Shown here: piece after piece, positions 1 through 37,507 of the stretch | Position numbering within the stretch: the first letter of the stretch is position 1 | Layout of the letters: every line of letters starts with the position of its first letter | From: a virus | Direction: 5' to 3' (one strand) | Length of the DNA stretch: 39,295 nucleotides | Virus record (IMG/VR): IMGVR_UViG_3300044971_001777 | Span: 1-39,295 of that record | Notes under the pieces: generated by a model | The model's database searches: none | Seen by the model: only the letters and a program-made list of their open reading frames with translations | Told to the model about the DNA's origin: nothing | Program-made: the position numbers and the translations under genes

Positions 1-58
1 CATCATCCCAAACCCATGCTTCTTTTGTATTTGTTTTTACGAAAATGTTTTGATACAT
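1..58 (-). CDS. Partial N-terminus, possible family B DNA polymerase (gp43-like)
   Basis: An open frame starts with ATG at 58 and runs off the low-coordinate edge, giving 19 codons that begin MYQNIFVKTNTKEAWVWDD. The ATG lies one base after the methyltransferase stop, so the two genes are tightly coupled, and a purine-rich AAGAGAG precedes it. The opening (M-Y-x-N-I-F-V, then W-D-D near residue 18) resembles, from memory, the first residues of the replicative family B polymerases of marine T4-like phages. Only 19 residues are visible and no exonuclease or polymerase motif is present, so the identity is a tentative inference; the presence of a gene start is much safer than its name. Confidence 0.4.
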   Translation of the reverse strand, partial: MYQNIFVKTNTKEAWVWDD

Positions 59-3103: not shown

Positions 3104-3853
3104 CTAACCTCCTACATTCCAAAATAATGCATCATCCGATGCGTGTTCTTTAATAAATGACCAAACTTTTGAATCGTAATAATCCGAAGATGGAAACGGT
3201 GGTTTCTCTGCGGTTTTACATTTTTGTGTGAATTTATATTTTGATAAAAATAATTCTGCTCTACCTCTTTCTCTATCGGTAGTGTTGTGACCAACTCTAA
3301 CACCATAAACTTTTGCATCCGGCCATGCCTTCTGCAAACCTCTTGAAAGAACACCTGAACTTATACATGACCAAACTTCTTTTGGTTGTATAGGAAGTGA
3401 ACTTGCAATTCTAGCAACTTCATCTATAACAACAGGATGGTCAAGCCCAAACGGTAGTAATTGTGTACCAGGCGTTTCTACTGCATACGTTTTAGCAACG
3501 TGTTGAATGTGTGTGAGAAATCCCATAGGAACTTCTATAATGTTTGCACCAATAGAAATTGCTTCTTCGGTTAAAGGTAGATGTTTTCCTTTCGGAATGA
3601 TAACTGTTGCCTTCAATCCCAAGTCTCTACAAGCATAAGCAAGTGCAACTTGAGCATAGCCAACTCTCGGTGAAGCATAAACCCATTCTCTAACATGAGA
3701 TTGTGATTGAAGATAACGGTATAAAAATCTTCTTTTTGTTCCACCAGGAAGTAAGTCATCACGAACTACCCAAATGTTTTCATGTCTTTCAATAACAACA
3801 TCTGGCAAAGTTATCGTAACATCTTTCGTTGGATATTGAAAGAAGTCTGACAT
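3104..3853 (-). CDS. Fold-type II PLP-dependent enzyme (ACC deaminase/threonine synthase-like)
   Basis: A 249-aa protein of the tryptophan-synthase-beta (fold II) PLP superfamily. LPGGTKRRFL (about residues 36-45) matches the GGNKxRK segment of ACC deaminase/D-cysteine desulfhydrase and supplies the candidate Schiff-base lysine. Next come an SPRVGYAQVALAYACRDLG helix-strand unit (about 61-79) with ATVIIPKGK, and a Gly/Ser phosphate-loop candidate SSGVLSRGL (about 165-173). It ends WNVGG, where longer relatives continue for another 60-80 residues. Similar-length versions seem common in phages (recollection), so this is probably complete and not truncated. The substrate is unknown. It is flanked by thioredoxin (8 bp) and dUTPase (1 bp), suggesting a role tied to nucleotide or base metabolism, which is inference. 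Confidence 0.75.
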   Translation of the reverse strand: MSDFFQYPTKDVTITLPDVVIERHENIWVVRDDLLPGGTKRRFLYRYLQSQSHVREWVYASPRVGYAQVALAYACRDLGLKATVIIPKGKHLPLTEEAISIGANIIEVPMGFLTHIQHVAKTYAVETPGTQLLPFGLDHPVVIDEVARIASSLPIQPKEVWSCISSGVLSRGLQKAWPDAKVYGVRVGHNTTDRERGRAELFLSKYKFTQKCKTAEKPPFPSSDYYDSKVWSFIKEHASDDALFWNVGG

Positions 3854-11307: not shown

Positions 11308-11992
11308 TTAACCTCTCGTTATAGTGCTTTGACCGTTCTTCATTAGATTCACCGGCATCTAAATCTGTATGGTCATAATTCATGTTTTCCGTGTCCGGCG
11401 TAACCCATCGGTGATTCCGTTCAGCTGTCCATAATGTATTATTATACATTCTGTCTACTACAATACGTTGTTTTGTAGTAAATGCTGGATCGTGAAGCAA
11501 AAAACGATTATTGGGTTGTATGGCAAAATTACCATTGTCCATCATTATTACATGGCCACACTTATGTTGTGAGGGGTATTCGGAAAATAAATAATTAGTA
11601 TCTCCCGAATCTGTGCTAGCAGCCCAGTCTAACGTAAATAAATATCTACCTTTGTATTCTTTTCTTCGTCTTGAAATAAATTTTACTACTTTATTTTTGA
11701 AGTAAGGAAATTCTGTTGCAGATACGTGATAAGAAAAAGAATCCCATAAAACCAATTCATCTAATTCTTGTTCCGGAGCATCTTCTTTCCAACAAAAGGC
11801 ATGAATGGGCATTCTCCACCAAATACCACCATCCTCCATAACAAAATGAAACAGTGGTGATTGACCAGGTATTGATGACATTCCTATGATTAGACATGGA
11901 AATTTTTTATCGAACATATCTTTTTGGTCACGAAGAAAATTACCACGAACATATGCATCAATAATTGGTATTGGTGTATTTAGATAAGCCAT
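11270..11992 (-). CDS. Conserved phage protein, unknown function
   Basis: A 240-aa soluble protein rich in aromatic residues (W, Y, F, H). About residues 145-175 form a segment with HKCGHVIMMDNGNFAIQPNN, followed by RFLLHDPAF; I have seen similar wording in T4-like phage hypotheticals but know no function. The C-terminal 40 residues are polar and acidic, and look disordered. No catalytic motif is evident. Its ATG shares a base with the helicase stop (TAATG), so the two are translationally coupled, and its 3' end overlaps the GNAT-like gene by 38 bp. The position implies a role in replication or early takeover. Confidence 0.6.
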   Translation of the reverse strand: MAYLNTPIPIIDAYVRGNFLRDQKDMFDKKFPCLIIGMSSIPGQSPLFHFVMEDGGIWWRMPIHAFCWKEDAPEQELDELVLWDSFSYHVSATEFPYFKNKVVKFISRRRKEYKGRYLFTLDWAASTDSGDTNYLFSEYPSQHKCGHVIMMDNGNFAIQPNNRFLLHDPAFTTKQRIVVDRMYNNTLWTAERNHRWVTPDTENMNYDHTDLDAGESNEERSKHYNERLNENTNQSSERSV

Positions 11993-13344
11993 TAGAAACC
12001 TTCTAATTCTTTGAATTTCTGTGAAAGAGCCTTTTTAACATTTACATCACCCTTCATTGAAACAGTCACACTTTGACCCATATCTGATGATGGTTCGTAT
12101 ATTTCAATATGACCAGTCATTGTATTTATTTTACTTGGAAACGTCATACCGTCTGGACCAAAACGATTTTTAACTATATGCCATCTACCGGTTCCACCAA
12201 CTTTGTCATTGAGCTTTCTTGACAGCGACATGATAAAGTCTGCAATCATAATCTTATTATATGATTCTGAAACCTTACCACCTTCGATAACATCATCTTC
12301 AAGGGCAGAACGATTTGCCTGTGAAGCAGTCCATATAGGGATTTCATAAGTTCCACCGATACCACGTAGGTCTTCGTAAATATCATTTAGTTCCAATCTC
12401 TTATCGGTTGCCTTTGCAGGTCTAATCAAATCTGCATAATCAATAATAACCAAATCAGGTTTTTTACCTTGACTAATACATTTCTCAATGTGTGACGATA
12501 TAGTATTTATACTTGCAGTTTTAGTTGGATAATACTTTACAATCAATTCACCTTTAAGAGTTTCCATTGTGGAACGAATTTTTTCTTGAGCGTGTTCTTC
12601 GGAAAGATTTTGAAATGCAATCTTTGTAAAATAAGCATCAAATCTTCTTGCAACATAAAATTGATTTAATTCTAATGTATAATATATTACTGTCTTTCCT
12701 TCACGAACGGCATTTGCTGCAATACTAACCAATCCCCAAGATTTACCGCCACCGGCAGGAGCAATAATAACACCAAGTTCACCGGCAGCTAATCCACCAT
12801 TTGTAATATCATCTACAACATTCCATCCAGTAGCAACACAAGTTCTTGCACCTTCTTCATATCTTGCAATAATATCAACAAGATATTCGTGACCAATATC
12901 TTTGTCTGTTCCCGCTTTCAATGCAGTATCAATTTTCTTTTTTATCAAATCATATTTACCACTCTTAAGCAAATCAACAGATTCAATGATTGCAACTTTC
13001 ATCTTTTGGTTTTTACAAAATTCTAAAGTTGCATTTTTTACATATTCTGCATCAGAACTGTCTTTATATTTTTTTGTTTCCGTAAGAGAATCAACAATAG
13101 TAGATTTCAAAACTTTATCATCTACTGCAAGTATTTCGGATTTGAAAACCTCTTGTGTTGGTGCACTACGATAACGATTGTAATATGATATTACCTTTTC
13201 AACAATCCAAGAATTTGCTTGTGATTCAAAATAATTTGGTTCTATAATATCGGAGACTTGTTGTAGAAATGATTTATCAGATAACAATGCGGTAATTACT
13301 TTCGTTTGAAAAGTATGACCGAATTGTGATAGATTATCCTGCAT
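11992..13344 (-). CDS. Replicative DNA helicase (DnaB/gp41-like)
   Basis: A 450-aa hexameric SF4 helicase that unwinds DNA at the fork. An N-terminal helical domain (about 1-140) precedes the RecA-like core with Walker A APAGGGKS (195-202), Walker B LVIIDYADLI (298-307) and a sensor-type segment TASQANR (about residues 338-344). Length and layout match T4 gp41 and its phage relatives. A C-terminal tail follows the core, as in gp41, where it contacts the loader or primase. It overlaps the upstream nuclease gene by 11 bp and shares a TAATG junction with the downstream gene. No primase or loader gene is in this window. Confidence 0.92.
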   Translation of the reverse strand: MQDNLSQFGHTFQTKVITALLSDKSFLQQVSDIIEPNYFESQANSWIVEKVISYYNRYRSAPTQEVFKSEILAVDDKVLKSTIVDSLTETKKYKDSSDAEYVKNATLEFCKNQKMKVAIIESVDLLKSGKYDLIKKKIDTALKAGTDKDIGHEYLVDIIARYEEGARTCVATGWNVVDDITNGGLAAGELGVIIAPAGGGKSWGLVSIAANAVREGKTVIYYTLELNQFYVARRFDAYFTKIAFQNLSEEHAQEKIRSTMETLKGELIVKYYPTKTASINTISSHIEKCISQGKKPDLVIIDYADLIRPAKATDKRLELNDIYEDLRGIGGTYEIPIWTASQANRSALEDDVIEGGKVSESYNKIMIADFIMSLSRKLNDKVGGTGRWHIVKNRFGPDGMTFPSKINTMTGHIEIYEPSSDMGQSVTVSMKGDVNVKKALSQKFKELEGF

Positions 13345-14380
13345 TTTTATTCCTAAACTTGTTTAATTGTGTAAAATTCTTTTTCAACCATTCATCCCAA
13401 TCCGCAATTATGGATTGTAACTTGTCTTGTAAATACAATTTACCCAACTCCACTGTATTCATAGAATCAATCTCACCATCAACTAAACCACGAATATTTG
13501 ATTTATGACTCTGTGAAATATCAACATCATGTAATTGCATGATGTCATAATTCGTTTGTAGTTTATTTGTACTATGTTTAAGTGTTTGTAGTGCTTTTAA
13601 TTTACCGTCATATAATTTACAAATTTCTATGAACTTTTCCAAATTTATTTTTTCTTTTTCTGATAATTGTGGGAAATGTTTTTTTATTGTTGTTTCGCCA
13701 ACACCATGAATACCAGCAACATTATCACTTTTATCACCCATTAGTGCCTTGTATATGATATAGTTCTCACACCATATACCAGTTTCTTCAAGTAGATTTT
13801 CCGGATTATACATTTTCTTTTTTGTTGGCAAATACACATTAACCCTATCTGAAACTAATTGTAGGAAGTCTCTGTCATTAGAAAGTATTACCACTTTTTC
13901 TTTTAAATACGAAGAAAGATATGCAATAACATCATCTGCTTCTATATTATCTATCATTATTATAGTTACTGGCAGATTTTGTAGATAAGAGAAAACCCGC
14001 ATCATTTGATGTTTCATTGCCGCCTGTTCATCATCAATACCTTCAAATCCTACAACACGGTTCAACTTTGATTTTATTGCCCTACCTTCTTTGTAGTTTG
14101 AATATATTTTTTTTCTTCGATGTGAACCACCCTTTCCATCAAAGACAACAACAACCCGCGTGGGATTAACCATACGGATTGTTGCTCCAAGCGACTTTAA
14201 GAAACCAGATAGACCACCGACATGAATACCATCTTCGTTCAATGTTGGGATGGCAGAAAAGGTGCGTATAAATAAATTCATCCCATCAACAATCAAAACC
14301 TTACTATCACGATGTAGGTTTCCTTGTTCGGCTTTTTCCGTTTCTATTTCTTGTAAAAGTCTTTGATATTTTTTGTTCAT
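13334..14380 (-). CDS. 5'-3' nuclease (FEN/RNase H, T4 Rnh-like)
   Basis: Removes RNA primers or flaps from lagging-strand fragments. The PIN-like core begins KVLIVDGMNLF with the first metal Asp, followed by VVVVFDGKGG, an EADD cluster (IEADDVIAYL) and a VVILSNDRDFLQL strand. The DNA-binding H3TH element contains GDKSDNVAGIHGVGETT. The open frame extends upstream to an ATG at 14437, but an early-type promoter (14413-14442) lies inside that extension. I therefore place the start at the ATG at 14380 (MNKKYQRLL), giving 348 aa; the ATG at 14395 is the alternative. It overlaps the helicase gene by 11 bp. Confidence 0.9.
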   Translation of the reverse strand: MNKKYQRLLQEIETEKAEQGNLHRDSKVLIVDGMNLFIRTFSAIPTLNEDGIHVGGLSGFLKSLGATIRMVNPTRVVVVFDGKGGSHRRKKIYSNYKEGRAIKSKLNRVVGFEGIDDEQAAMKHQMMRVFSYLQNLPVTIIMIDNIEADDVIAYLSSYLKEKVVILSNDRDFLQLVSDRVNVYLPTKKKMYNPENLLEETGIWCENYIIYKALMGDKSDNVAGIHGVGETTIKKHFPQLSEKEKINLEKFIEICKLYDGKLKALQTLKHSTNKLQTNYDIMQLHDVDISQSHKSNIRGLVDGEIDSMNTVELGKLYLQDKLQSIIADWDEWLKKNFTQLNKFRNKNAG

Positions 14381-14412
14381 TGTAATCAATTCCATATATC
14401 GTTTTATCAATA

Positions 14413-14442
14413 CTAATATACGAAAATAATATGACATTGCAA
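14413..14442 (-). promoter_or_regulatory. Early-type promoter TTG-N19-TATATTAG (nuclease-helicase operon)
   Basis: TTG at 14440-14442, a 19-base spacer, then TATATTAG at 14413-14420. TATATTAGTATTG is identical over 13 bases with the SSB promoter. It is 33 bp before the chosen ATG at 14380 and directly after the terminator at 14445-14473. Confidence 0.72.
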
Positions 14443-14988: not shown

Positions 14989-16137
14989 TTATACTTCATC
15001 TTGTAATAATGGTTCATTTGAAAGTGTTACATCGTCAATTCTGGCTTCATCCAATTTCTTGTATTTCATAATCACCTTATCAGCAATTTCATCATATACT
15101 ATATCGTATAATTCAGAATTACTCATAATCTTTTCAACAAATTCTTTGGATTGAAATTTGATAACTTCTCCAGAACGCTTGTCTGTCCATGAATACCAAG
15201 CACCCGATTGAGATACAAGGTTGTGTTCTTTCATAACAGTAAGCCAACTACTGTAATCATCAATACCACTATCAAAGTAAACCTCATATTCACACTCTCG
15301 TAATGGAGGACCACAACGATTTTTTACTAACTTTGCCTTAACTCTCGAACCAACTATTTCATCACGACCTTCTCTCTTTGCCTTAATAGCACCGATTGAA
15401 GAAAGACGAAGACGAACAGATGCATGGAAAGGAATACCTTTACCACCCGGTGTTGTCCAAGGATCAGAGAATGCTGGTGCATTGAGTTTCTGACGAAGTT
15501 GGTTTGTAATAATCAAACAAATACGCTCTCTACCGATAAGATTTGTAATCTTTCTCATTGCCTTTGAAATGATAAGTGCCTTTGCCGTAGCATAACCATC
15601 TTTATCAAAATCTGCAGCCATTTCTGTTTTAGTGGATGCACCGGCGATTGAATCAACTACAATAGTTACCAATCTATCTTTATCGGATGAACGAACTTTG
15701 TCAATGATAACATCAACGGTTTCAAAAATATCTTCTACGGTTTCCAATGGAATGTATAACATATCTTTTAAGTTCAAACCGATTGCACTCAAATACTCAG
15801 TAGCAATAGCATTCTCGGTATCAATATAAACAGCAAGACCACCTTTCTTTTGTGTGTTGAGAAGTGCATGGGCTGCCAATAGAGATTTACCAGATTGTTC
15901 GAGACCTGTTATTTCAGATACACGACCAACAGGAAAACCACCATACTTACGATTGGAAATGGCCAAGTCCAACATGGTTGAGCCAGTTCCTACCCATTCT
16001 TTTACTATCGTAGGTGCATCACTATCACCTTCAAGAAAGTAAGCGGTCTTAATGTTTTGAGCTTTGAATTGTTTGTTTATAGTTTCGGCAATGACTCCAC
16101 CGAGTTCATCGGATAAATCACTTTTTGATTTTGCCAT
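14989..16137 (-). CDS. uvsX: RecA/UvsX-like recombinase
   Basis: A 382-aa strand-exchange protein for recombination-dependent replication and repair. The RecA core carries Walker A GLEQSGKS (78-85), VYIDTENA (about 103-110, with the catalytic-Glu position), Walker B LVTIVVDS (156-163) and a TNQLRQK segment resembling RecA's ITNQ(I/L)R L2-adjacent motif. The length suits phage UvsX (about 390 aa). The acidic C-terminus (ending LLQDEV) is typical. It lies 12 bp downstream of the SSB gene and must share its promoter, pairing the recombinase with the single-strand-binding protein as expected functionally. Confidence 0.92.
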   Translation of the reverse strand: MAKSKSDLSDELGGVIAETINKQFKAQNIKTAYFLEGDSDAPTIVKEWVGTGSTMLDLAISNRKYGGFPVGRVSEITGLEQSGKSLLAAHALLNTQKKGGLAVYIDTENAIATEYLSAIGLNLKDMLYIPLETVEDIFETVDVIIDKVRSSDKDRLVTIVVDSIAGASTKTEMAADFDKDGYATAKALIISKAMRKITNLIGRERICLIITNQLRQKLNAPAFSDPWTTPGGKGIPFHASVRLRLSSIGAIKAKREGRDEIVGSRVKAKLVKNRCGPPLRECEYEVYFDSGIDDYSSWLTVMKEHNLVSQSGAWYSWTDKRSGEVIKFQSKEFVEKIMSNSELYDIVYDEIADKVIMKYKKLDEARIDDVTLSNEPLLQDEV

Positions 16138-16149
16138 AAAACACCCTTA

Positions 16150-16905
16150 TTAAAATAGGTCATCAAATGTAACACCAATATCATCAGCAGATGATGTGGG
16201 TTTCTCAGTCTTTTCTTGTTTGTAATTCAAATCAGCAGCAGGTTCTTCTTGTGAAGATGCACCCATCCAAGTTTGTAATTGAATTTTCAAATCATCATAA
16301 GATGGTTCTGGAAACAATTCAGTAATCTGTGGTTGTGTCTTAATCTTTTCAAGAACATCCTGAGATTCGGTAATTGGGGTTTCTTTTGGTTTAACACGAA
16401 TAGTTGTTTCGGCGTAAGTTTTACCAGCTTCTTCTGGTGACTTAACTGTAACAACAATATCACGACCAGATTTAGGATCAGACAAATCACCGTAATCCGG
16501 ATCAACAAAGAAAGCAAGTAGTTCTTCATAAACTTGTTTACCAAATCCCCAAAACTTAACACCTTCATTTTCTTGACCACGAATGATAACAGGTGCATAC
16601 ACTCTCATTTTTGGTTCGAGTTTTCTACCCATTACCCAATCTTCTTTATCGCCAGTTTGTTTCAACTTCTCAGCAAATTCAACGATTGGATCAGGACGAC
16701 CAAATGATACAGGTGAAAGAATAGAACGCTTACCGATATTGTAATGAAAATACAATTCGATGAAAGGGTTTTCTCTATTGTGAATGTAAGGAGCAATACG
16801 AATTTGGGTTTCGCCCGGATCGGGTTTCCAAATGTTTGATGTGCGATTGTTTGTGTTTTTCAAAGAGTTCAAACGGCTCTTGATTGCATCGAGGTTAATA
16901 CTCAT
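16150..16905 (-). CDS. Single-stranded DNA-binding protein (gp32-like)
   Basis: A 251-aa helix-destabilising protein of the T4 gp32 family, coating ssDNA and organising the replisome. A basic N-terminal segment (residues 1-26, the cooperativity region in gp32) precedes the OB-fold core. This includes EPKMRVYAPVIIRG, KFWGFGKQVYEELL and DPDYGDLSDP-x-x-GRDI, all typical of the family. The C-terminus is a low-complexity linker ending in acidic DDIGVTFDDLF, the protein-interaction tail. No Zn-ribbon Cys/His cluster like that of T4 gp32 is visible, as in many distant homologues. GGAG lies 7 bases before the ATG; the early-type promoter is at 16978-17008. Confidence 0.9.
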   Translation of the reverse strand: MSINLDAIKSRLNSLKNTNNRTSNIWKPDPGETQIRIAPYIHNRENPFIELYFHYNIGKRSILSPVSFGRPDPIVEFAEKLKQTGDKEDWVMGRKLEPKMRVYAPVIIRGQENEGVKFWGFGKQVYEELLAFFVDPDYGDLSDPKSGRDIVVTVKSPEEAGKTYAETTIRVKPKETPITESQDVLEKIKTQPQITELFPEPSYDDLKIQLQTWMGASSQEEPAADLNYKQEKTEKPTSSADDIGVTFDDLF

Positions 16906-19589: not shown

Positions 19590-19979
19590 CTACCAACTAT
19601 ACACTCTAACCAAAAATATCTTTACAACTCTGAACCCATCTCTGTTTTTAAGAAGTGCACAGTTTCTATATCTTTCCCATTCAATAGGATATTTTTTATC
19701 TAAAACACCGTTGTTCAAATTCATTATGAGTTCATTAAGAGCATTTATTGTGTATATTGTATTTGTTTCACGCTTTTGGTGAACCATTATTGAATTTGGT
19801 AAAAACTTTTTGTAATCATCCATCACTATATTGTACGAAAGTATAGAATCCTCTTTCGTTTCAAATGATTTAAAATGAAATACTTTATTATTTAATATAG
19901 AAAAATTTTCTTTTATATCTGATAAGGTTTCATCTACTTGATGTTTGCGAGTAAATGTACATACTAATTGTGTTTTCAA
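19590..19979 (-). CDS. Conserved phage protein (MKTQLVCTFT family), unknown function
   Basis: A 129-aa protein that opens MKTQLVCTFT and contains NTIYTINALNELI followed by NNGVLDKKYPIEWERY (about 84-114). From memory, similar small proteins with this exact layout (a TQLVC start and an IYTINALNEL helix) occur in other T4-like phages, with no known function. It is a single-gene unit with an ATATTTAT element 37 bp upstream of the ATG and a purine-rich GAGAGAGAGG about 8 bases before it. It has no capsid-targeting-like N-terminus. Confidence 0.65.
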   Translation of the reverse strand: MKTQLVCTFTRKHQVDETLSDIKENFSILNNKVFHFKSFETKEDSILSYNIVMDDYKKFLPNSIMVHQKRETNTIYTINALNELIMNLNNGVLDKKYPIEWERYRNCALLKNRDGFRVVKIFLVRVYSW

Positions 19980-20028: not shown

Positions 20029-21240
20029 CTAAATTTGTTTAATAGCACCAAATGTATCACCAGCGTAAATTTTTACTGACATATTATCTGTCTCAAAGGC
20101 ACGATGAAGAACATCTATCAAATCCACTTCATCCGGATGAATGTCAAAAATAAAAGCATCATATAGATACATCATAAAGACAGACTTTTTATCCTTTAAG
20201 TGAGGTAGAATCGTTTTTATCTTACGGACATTATATTCTGTTTCCAATGATTGCAATACATAGTTGAATACTTTATTTGGTGTTGCATCTTGTATATCAC
20301 GGAATAGTTTTTCATAAAACCAAGATTTAACTATACCTTCCGATTGATATTGTTCATACATCGTATCAATCATTGCTTGAACAGTTTGGAAGAAAGGATG
20401 TCCCATAAATTCAGGAGTTATCGTTCCATAAATGTTTTGAAACACTTTACCTTTGAATTGATCATAATCCATATCAATTCCTAATTCATTCCGTATCTGT
20501 TCGTATGGATGATAGTCAAATTGATAATCCAATATCTTTGCCAATAACTTTATGTGAAAGGCATCATAATCAAATTGAACAATTTTACCACCTTCAAACC
20601 GTGAACGAATTTTATCACGAGTTCCGTCCTTCTTATTCATAGCAGAAAAATTAAATCCACCCCAAGCATTACTTGGTCTGCCAGTTGCAGTATACCACAT
20701 ATAGTTTTGTTTTTTTATTTCATCACCAACAAGGATGTCATTTTTTTCTATCTCGTGGAATACTTCTATGAAATCATTACAATAATTTACACATTTTTCT
20801 TTTTTGAACTCGAATGGTTTTAATCTCAATACATATTTTGCAATACCTCTTGCCCATTCTAATTGATTTACAAGTGGAATAACATGACCTAAATCTTCTA
20901 TCTTGTAAAACTTATTAGCAAGATACTCCATTCCCTTTGGATAAAATTCTTGTGCATTGATAGTTGTTGTTGCATAATAATGTAGGTATGAGTTTATATC
21001 AAAACCATCATTAAAATCATTATTCATCAATACTTTTTTGTTGAACACAAGAGATTTCGGGTGTAGTTTTATTTCTTGTAGAGTTATATCGGTATCAATT
21101 TCATCTGGATGTGTAAAATTGATATATCGTTCTTCACCATTATCAAATGATAAGTGAAGACCTACGATAGCAACTTCTGATTGGTGTTTGTTAGCATTAC
21201 TTGTTATTGGAACACAAATGCATGGTTTGTCTTGGAACAT
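20029..21240 (-). CDS. Compact divergent family A DNA polymerase
   Basis: A 403-aa protein that keeps the landmarks of the PolA palm and fingers. TATGRPSN (184-191) corresponds to TGRLSS. Motif A is QFDYDAFHIK with catalytic Asp at D224. The O-helix FKGKVFQNIYG (262-272) carries equivalents of E. coli Pol I K758 (K263), F762 (F267), Y766 (Y271) and G767; the R754 position is not Arg. Motif C is YLYDAFIFD with D361, where the family usually has HDE. The N-terminal 110 residues have an exonuclease-like beta pattern (VGLHLSFDNG...) but no DxE motif, so proofreading is probably absent. It is much shorter than Pol I or T7 polymerase. It follows baseplate genes but has its own early-type promoter (21293-21323). 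It may be a repair or auxiliary polymerase if the window-edge gene is the replicase. Confidence 0.72.
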   Translation of the reverse strand: MFQDKPCICVPITSNANKHQSEVAIVGLHLSFDNGEERYINFTHPDEIDTDITLQEIKLHPKSLVFNKKVLMNNDFNDGFDINSYLHYYATTTINAQEFYPKGMEYLANKFYKIEDLGHVIPLVNQLEWARGIAKYVLRLKPFEFKKEKCVNYCNDFIEVFHEIEKNDILVGDEIKKQNYMWYTATGRPSNAWGGFNFSAMNKKDGTRDKIRSRFEGGKIVQFDYDAFHIKLLAKILDYQFDYHPYEQIRNELGIDMDYDQFKGKVFQNIYGTITPEFMGHPFFQTVQAMIDTMYEQYQSEGIVKSWFYEKLFRDIQDATPNKVFNYVLQSLETEYNVRKIKTILPHLKDKKSVFMMYLYDAFIFDIHPDEVDLIDVLHRAFETDNMSVKIYAGDTFGAIKQI

Positions 21241-21245
21241 AATGG

Positions 21246-21902
21246 TTATACATCGTAAACTGAAAATTCTCTTGGATTTCGCAATATCTTTGCTAATATA
21301 GGGAATTTTTTTGAATTGCGCAAGATAATTCTTCTATTCGTATCAACAACTCCAGGTGTTACTAATGTACTACCGTTGTAAACATCGTATTCAGGTCCAC
21401 TTAATTTCCAAGGCATAGTAACAAGACCATATAGAAAATGATTGATACCCTCGTTTAAAGAATTAAAATTTTCAGTTTGTTGTTCGTCTATTTCAAAAAA
21501 TACTCTCTCGGGTTCATTTCTTTTGTAAACAAAGTATCTATTCATTGCACCGTTGTTTATCTCACTTTGTGTTGGTGTTCTCTTCACAACACTTGGGGCA
21601 ACATATCTATAATACTGAGTGGTTGAACCCAATAATTTTCTTTTTTCTCCATTACTGAAAACAGTATACTGTTTCAAATCCAAATACTTAAAATAAGTTT
21701 CAGTTTGTTCTTTGTATCGGATTAACCTCATTGATTTTACAGGATCCCATTCTTTTTCCGTATAGACTTCACCCGTAGTGTAACTATGGTAATACCCTGC
21801 ATATTCTTTCCAATCATCAAGAGTCATCCACTCTTTTCCTTTTGTAAAAAGATTTTTTGTTATCTGATAATCGGGATAAAATATTTTTCTTCTTTTTGCC
21901 AT
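21246..21902 (-). CDS. Probable baseplate/tail-associated protein, unknown
   Basis: A 218-aa protein, rich in Tyr, Arg and Lys, with no enzymatic motif. The N-terminal region reads FYPDYQITKNLFTKGKEWM, and a YYHSYTTGEVYTEKEWDP segment (about 37-54) recalls T4-like phage proteins found beside tail genes. The central stretch (about 115-145) is beta-rich. It begins 9 bp after the baseplate hub-like stop, so it is co-transcribed with the LysM and hub genes; that is the main support for a structural or assembly role. Its 3' end contains the early-type promoter of the next gene. Confidence 0.5.
   Translation of the reverse strand: MAKRRKIFYPDYQITKNLFTKGKEWMTLDDWKEYAGYYHSYTTGEVYTEKEWDPVKSMRLIRYKEQTETYFKYLDLKQYTVFSNGEKRKLLGSTTQYYRYVAPSVVKRTPTQSEINNGAMNRYFVYKRNEPERVFFEIDEQQTENFNSLNEGINHFLYGLVTMPWKLSGPEYDVYNGSTLVTPGVVDTNRRIILRNSKKFPILAKILRNPREFSVYDV
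21293..21323 (-). promoter_or_regulatory. Early-type promoter TTG-N20-TATATTAG for the PolA-like gene
   Basis: TTG at 21321-21323, exactly 20 bases, TATATTAG at 21293-21300, 52 bp before the ATG at 21240. It lies inside the coding region of the preceding tail-type gene, so the polymerase can be transcribed separately from the late operon. Confidence 0.7.
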
Positions 21903-36538: not shown

Positions 36539-37507
36539 TTAGTTGGAAATATACCAATCTATTGTTGATTTTATACCATCTTCAAAATTTATCAAAGGTT
36601 TCCAATTCAATTCTTCCTTTGCTTTTGTAGAATCGATGGCATATCTTCTATCATGGCCTAATCTATCTTCAACATAGATTATTTCTGATTCCGGCTTACC
36701 CATGATGGATAGTATTTCTTTTACCAATTCACCATTAGACCACTCATTATCCGAACCTATGTTGTAAACTTCTCCATTTTTTCCTCTCTCGTATGCAAGC
36801 CATACCGCTCTACAATGGTCATCTACATGAATCCAATCACGAACATTCAATCCATCACCATATATTGGCAGTTTTTTACTATTTAATACATTTGTAATCA
36901 TTAGTGGTATCAATTTTTCAGTATGTTGGCGTGGACCGTAGTTGTTGGAACAACGAGTTATCACAGTAGGAACACCGTGTGTATGATAATAAGCACGGAC
37001 AAATCCATCTGCAGCTGATTTTGCTGCTGAATAAGATGAATTTGGTTTAATTTGTGATTGTTCGGTAAATTTTTCGTGTGAATATAACTCTAAACTGCCA
37101 TAGACTTCATCGGTAGATACTTGAACAAACTTTTTTAAGTTCAAATCCTTAGCAACCGTCAATAAAGATACAGTTCCAATAATATTAGTATCTATGAATG
37201 GTTTTTCATCCGTAATTGACCTATCTACATGAGATTCTGCAGCAAAATTTATTATACCTTCTATATTGTAAAATGAACAAATACTTTTTACAAATTCTGT
37301 ATCACAGATGTCACCATGTACGAATATATGTCTATCGTCATTTTCAATAAATTTTTTAACATTTTGTAAATTACCAGCGTAGGTGAGTAAATCCAAATTT
37401 ATTATTCTAATATCAGACTGAATATCATCTAACATCATGTGAATAAAGTTACTACCTATAAAACCACAACCACCTGTTACAAGAACAGTTCTTTTTTGAA
37501 GTGACAT
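36539..37507 (-). CDS. rmlB: dTDP-glucose 4,6-dehydratase
   Basis: Converts dTDP-glucose to dTDP-4-keto-6-deoxyglucose, the entry step to rhamnose and other deoxysugars. The extended short-chain dehydrogenase fold is clear. GGCGFIGS (12-19) binds NAD, FAAESHVDRS (about 88-97) is family-typical, STDEVYG (about 131-137) carries the Asp-Glu dehydratase pair, and YSAAK holds the catalytic Tyr and Lys. NNYGPRQ and GDGLNVRDWIHVDDH are diagnostic for RmlB. At 322 aa it is full length. No rmlA, C or D lies nearby. It sits alone between the tail tube and gp26-like genes with its own ATATTTAT element and bounding terminator. It looks like an acquired cassette for modifying host surface glycans or phage structures. 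Confidence 0.93.
   Translation of the reverse strand: MSLQKRTVLVTGGCGFIGSNFIHMMLDDIQSDIRIINLDLLTYAGNLQNVKKFIENDDRHIFVHGDICDTEFVKSICSFYNIEGIINFAAESHVDRSITDEKPFIDTNIIGTVSLLTVAKDLNLKKFVQVSTDEVYGSLELYSHEKFTEQSQIKPNSSYSAAKSAADGFVRAYYHTHGVPTVITRCSNNYGPRQHTEKLIPLMITNVLNSKKLPIYGDGLNVRDWIHVDDHCRAVWLAYERGKNGEVYNIGSDNEWSNGELVKEILSIMGKPESEIIYVEDRLGHDRRYAIDSTKAKEELNWKPLINFEDGIKSTIDWYISN

Follow-up and report, generated by a model that had tools for sequence, protein, structure and literature searches.

The window analysed here is a virus record of 39,295 bases, AT-rich and with essentially all of its long genes on the minus strand. At 20029-21240 the minus strand carries an open reading frame that opens with an ATG at 21240 and runs to 20029, encoding 403 amino acids without interruption; translation of the plus strand over the same interval is full of stops. 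A preliminary description had placed the frame at exactly these positions and had left out the strand. As judged from an AlphaFold model, fold matches and alignment, the product is a mini family A DNA polymerase consisting of a degenerate 3'-5' exonuclease-like head (approximately residues 1-120), a shortened thumb (approximately 121-180) and the palm and fingers (approximately 180-403).

The gene lies between tail genes (gp53-like and hub) and a replication/recombination block, all on one strand, in window-type, immuto-type and marine-type contigs as well as in a 484-kb uncultured phage. A 218-aa gene of no known family (21246-21902, minus strand) sits directly upstream of the polymerase and separates it from the tail genes. 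Beyond the mini-polymerase follow, also on the minus strand, a conserved 129-aa gene of no known family (19590-19979), a gp32-like single-strand DNA-binding protein, or SSB (16150-16905; PF08804, E 8e-11; phrog_1192), a UvsX/RecA recombinase (14989-16137; PF00154, phrog_97), a PolI-type 5'-3' (flap) exonuclease encoded as a separate gene (13334-14437; PF02739, E 3e-34) and a DnaB-like replicative helicase (11992-13344; PF03796, phrog_19).

Taken alone, the window protein yielded no match in single-sequence searches of Pfam and PHROGs, and phmmer against the PDB returned chance matches only. Identification thus required relatives and profiles. Three clade members exceed the curated Pfam cut-off for PF00476 (34.3 bits), namely the protein of Flavobacterium phage immuto (42.7 bits) and those of the marine relatives L223 (42.5) and L217 (40.8), with the window protein itself falling below it. 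A marine member retrieves the PolA of Roseobacter phage CRP-3 by plain tblastn (E 4e-15), and the whole family (69 rows) aligns with six reference PolAs in hhalign with a probability of 98.4 and an E value of 6e-15. An AlphaFold2 model, for which the input was the window protein and its IMG/VR relatives only, has a mean pLDDT of 93.6 and a pTM of 0.90. The best 50 PDB matches of this model in Foldseek are family A polymerases throughout (1kfd at E 3e-15). In VIA-align, residues 1-402 superimpose on residues ~300-832 or 310-876 of KlenTaq and the Bst large fragment with Z scores of 26-27.4. The comparison with Klenow-type enzymes that had been proposed as a check therefore found the PolA palm and no other fold. 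The two motif aspartates could have lain apart in the model. Its secondary structure has D224 close to where the motif A strand (219-226) ends and D361 in the turn between the two arms of the motif C hairpin (354-359/362-367), the placement known from Klenow. Selection on the gene is purifying (dN/dS 0.09-0.13 between the window gene and its relatives). The model confidence, the uniform PDB matches and the dN/dS values together rule out a chance reading frame. With a palm of Klenow topology, the Asp residues of motifs A and C and a motif B of the form KxxxFxxxYG on the O-helix, the window protein is, by fold and homology, a genuine if reduced family A DNA polymerase, whose activity is predicted. 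In contig L060 (3133-4379) the gene of a 94%-identical relative is interrupted, giving overlapping frames of 302 and 126 aa; a frameshift error in the contig is the probable cause.

The catalytic motifs could be assigned by alignment. Motif A (codons D224 to H229, corresponding to Klenow D705 to E710) lies at 20554-20571 on the minus strand, codon n being counted from 21240-3*(n-1). Motif B on the O-helix, with Y259, K263, F267, Y271 and G272, occupies 20425-20466 and motif C, Y360-D361-A362 (Klenow H881-D882-E883), is at 20155-20163, both on the minus strand. Residues R188, D224, K263, F267, Y271, N326, Q330 and D361 are invariant in all 69 aligned rows; the 484-kb phage has Ser at the N845 position. 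In the same order, their Klenow equivalents are R668, D705, K758, F762, Y766, N845, Q849 and D882, a set held in common with Klenow, Bst and KlenTaq. The six residues named previously (D224, K263, F267, Y271, G272 and D361) were thus correctly read, and each is present in 69/69 relatives.

Against this background, the nucleotide pocket differs at four positions, each with the same replacement in 69/69 rows: D226 at S707, H229 at E710, Y259 at R754 and Y360 at H881. Loss of the R754 equivalent and conversion of HDE to YDA had been recognized in the preliminary description, which missed the D226 and H229 exchanges. The YDA in place of HDE is confirmed; its missing Glu, however, is not distinctive, since phage PolAs commonly lack it. 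In a reference set of 12 PolAs (T7, Salmonella Pol I, Twort, Muddy, CRP-1, CRP-3, immuto gp199, CM1, BM15, LIS04, LP65 and MaInes), motif C reads HDA or HDS in nine cases (HDA in Muddy and MaInes; HDS in Twort, CRP, CM1, LP65 and LIS04) and HDQ in one. All 12 keep E710 and H881; R754 is kept with one Lys, and position 707 is S, A, T or N. None carries any of the four changes. The window protein thus departs from the canonical Pol I/T7-type PolA subgroup in having E710, R754 and H881 replaced, and D226 in place of a small or neutral residue at 707. In Klenow and T7, dNTP binding or selection is aided by R754, E710 and H881. With all three replaced, the enzyme could polymerize weakly, differently or not at all, and the retained residues could alternatively be kept for DNA binding without synthesis.

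The reduction in size is unevenly distributed. From the exonuclease head to the TGR there are 179 residues, compared to 311-514 in the references; 39 residues separate motif A from K758 (47-72 in the references) and 62 separate K758 from N845 (78-114), and the spacing from N845 to motif C is near normal. Hence the head, the thumb and the fingers are reduced and the palm is not. The head, as previously stated, lacks the DxE motif; instead of the 3'-5' exonuclease active-site residues it conserves H19, H44, K69 and D81. Loss of the thumb lowers processivity in Klenow. A vestigial exonuclease head is also found in Bst and Taq; compared to Klenow, Bst and KlenTaq, the window protein is shorter (403 versus ~540-605 aa), with shortened thumb and fingers and the S707D, E710H, R754Y and H881Y changes. 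It has no 5'-3' exonuclease domain, this activity being assigned to the separate gene.

In a tree of polymerase domains the mini-polymerases form one clade with support of 1.0 and a stem of 1.29 substitutions per site. Together with the fixed four-residue signature, these values bear out the earlier suggestion of a new polymerase subfamily, and at the sequence level the clade is a distinct subfamily of family A polymerases. With the alignment as query, at least 590 IMG/VR stretches encode a relative. Among phage genomes, tblastn identified relatives in Microcystis phage Mel-JY01 (46% identity), phage immuto (27%) and the 484-kb phage; altogether, only six of 50,697 named phage records contain a mini-polymerase, these three included. 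A search of 84,980 bacterial and archaeal genomes found one relative, and a search of plasmids found none. A cellular or plasmid origin is rejected on these counts, and the clade is virus-restricted. The one relative in a cellular genome (L287, CALMEO010000055.1) is on a 104.6-kb contig of a metagenome-assembled genome and perhaps belongs to a co-binned phage. Single members have been annotated as polymerases before: in GenBank, immuto gp001 is already a family A polymerase. The open-access papers searched describe neither the clade nor its signature nor its status as a second polymerase. Since most copies lack an annotation or are listed as hypothetical, virus surveys relying on PolA as a marker may overlook or misplace them.

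Among named phage records, the 129-aa gene occurs in the six that have the mini-polymerase and in no others, which makes its product a candidate partner. It adjoins the mini-polymerase in all three subfamilies, and its protein contains a very conserved HRKKxTNTLYTINALN motif. Its model is confident (pLDDT 94.4) and finds no convincing match in the PDB, the best Foldseek E value being 0.11 and VIA Z scores reaching at most 6.4 over 60-odd residues, in the range of common arrangements. The protein may be a partner of the polymerase; both could simply be core genes of one clade.

The mini-polymerase co-occurs with a full-size one. Full-size family B polymerase (PolB) was found in 8 of the 18 records first searched, all eight of the window type and Mel-JY01 among them. 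PolB is present in every searched record of at least 110 kb except immuto, whose large polymerase belongs to family A; the records lacking a second polymerase are mostly below 110 kb and are probably fragments. Seven immuto-type records each combine the mini-polymerase with a PolA of ~780 aa, and five marine-type records and the 484-kb phage (LR756508) have PolB. In the window itself, bases 58 to 2 of the minus strand read MYQNIFVKTNTKEAWVWDD, the first 19 codons of a PolB gene cut by the window edge (2-58, minus strand), whose translation matches the PolB start of relative G001. This start adjoins a methyltransferase gene (60-1286), and the same methyltransferase-PolB arrangement recurs in G001. 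Many large T4-like viruses of water bacteria thus carry a half-size Pol I relative besides their normal replicative enzyme. The co-occurrence with full-size PolB or PolA supports the term auxiliary used in the preliminary description. As to the PolB genes themselves, that of G001, the closest long relative (L092/L093, 53,555-55,532), is broken into frames of 610 and 306 aa around a 215-aa glycosyltransferase-like gene, the first part ending in a stretch of intein-like appearance (VKASELLETDDIV); the PolB of LR756508 also seems interrupted (frames of 1022 and 625 aa).

Immuto and Mel-JY01 offer the nearest known parallels. Immuto gp001 (YP_010114413, 441 aa, "DNA polymerase family A") belongs to the same clade and shares the signature, the gene block (SSB, RecA, 5'-3' exonuclease, DnaB) and the status of second polymerase; it differs from the window protein in being only 27% identical, in a slightly longer thumb region and in accompanying a large polymerase of family A (gp199, 777 aa) rather than B. 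Mel-JY01 is closer in sequence: its 408-aa protein (WWT39333), annotated as hypothetical and not as a polymerase, is 46% identical and sits in the same gene order, with PolB and a DnaG-type primase elsewhere in the genome. T7 gp5 and the replicative PolAs of phages such as Twort, Muddy and CRP-3 have the family A palm and motifs in common with the mini-polymerase, but they are main polymerases of 683-1257 aa that keep E710, R754 (one Lys) and H881. The group 2.2 jumbo phages have a minimal, split Pol III alpha beside PolB (PMC7824862). These large phages too pair a family B replicase with a second, reduced polymerase, but one of an unrelated family and made of two proteins. Rhodothermus phage RM378, cited earlier as an example of a split family A polymerase, proved to be a mistaken precedent. 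Its genome lacks a PF00476 match, its polymerase frame is family B (PF00136, E 1e-34) and the mini-polymerase family profile finds no match in it. RM378 is thus rejected as a relative; what it shares is being a Far-T4 phage.

We favour the reading, with a probability of about 0.6, that the window protein would be a reduced, catalytically competent family A polymerase serving as a second, accessory polymerase of T4-like (Far-T4-type) phages, where it would fill gaps or extend recombination joints. PolB, or the large PolA, would meanwhile copy the genome. The mini-polymerase would make short DNA patches with low processivity and with no proofreading of its own, filling the gaps that the nearby PolI-type 5'-3' exonuclease leaves during Okazaki-primer removal and nick repair; alternatively, it would extend recombination joints made by UvsX. 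In either case the functions of bacterial Pol I would be carried by two separate genes, one for the 5'-3' exonuclease and one for the mini-polymerase. The choice of repair over other accessory roles is our inference, and gap filling, recombination-primed synthesis and lesion bypass cannot be told apart by gene neighbourhood alone.

Lesion bypass is, in our estimate, unlikely. Here the short fingers and altered pocket would loosen geometric selection and allow the enzyme to copy damaged template at a stalled PolB. The missing DxE motif, the shortened fingers and thumb, the replacement of R754, E710 and H881 and the location with UvsX and SSB are all consistent with this, and the bypass-capable family A enzymes Pol theta and Pol nu are among the best fold matches, as are all family A enzymes. 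However, the block includes no gene specific to the damage response, and the changes are uniform rather than relaxed, with F762 and Y766 kept. A changed substrate appears less likely still. E710 is the position of the sugar steric gate, and in Bst the equivalent residue, E658, has this role, the E658A mutant admitting ribonucleotides (PMC7200780). With E710 changed to His and R754 and H881 to Tyr, exchanges fixed along with D226 in 69/69 rows, the enzyme might accept ribonucleotides, modified dNTPs or an RNA primer end, as in extending primers before hand-off to PolB. But a bulky His may itself act as a gate, and its partner Y766 is kept. Moreover, a DnaG-type primase is found in immuto (by annotation), Mel-JY01 and G012, though not in some fragmentary records, so that a primer-making role is unneeded and a replacement for a missing primase is rejected.

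That the protein is catalytically dead and serves the recombination or replication block as a scaffold bound to DNA is improbable. All members have four nucleotide-pocket positions replaced, and the degenerate exonuclease head shows the lineage to be capable of losing a catalytic site; yet the metal-binding Asp pair and the equivalents of K758, F762, Y766, R668 and Q849 are invariant at 23-25% identity, a pattern that decay would not give. Least of all do we expect the mini-polymerase to be the main replicase. The 39-kb window contains no other whole polymerase gene, but it ends inside the start of PolB and the relatives have a complete PolB or PolA, on which grounds this candidate is rejected.

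A single polymerase suffices for T4 itself. The conservation of a second, half-size one in many T4-like phages of aquatic habitats suggests that a replicase and a dedicated gap-filler share DNA synthesis there and that Pol I functions exist as two genes. The fixed E710H, R754Y and H881Y changes break three positions held in the compared PolAs, which makes the enzyme a natural experiment on the contacts that family A polymerases require. With 403 aa and no proofreading motif, it may also be of use as a tool. It is doubtful, though conceivable, that the case extends to a previously undescribed, widespread subfamily in which the pocket was exchanged as a set (S707D, E710H, R754Y and H881Y) for a different nucleotide-handling chemistry or substrate, with the 129-aa protein as partner, and which would be the obligate second polymerase of Far-T4-type phages.

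Two other genes of the window, both on the minus strand, merit mention. The gene at 3104-3853 encodes a threonine dehydratase-type pyridoxal-phosphate enzyme (PF00291, phrog_7093), an unusual cargo for a T4-like phage. Within the tail block, at 36539-37507 and adjoining the tail tube gene, lies a gene for a 322-aa protein that by eye resembles nucleotide-sugar dehydratases/epimerases.
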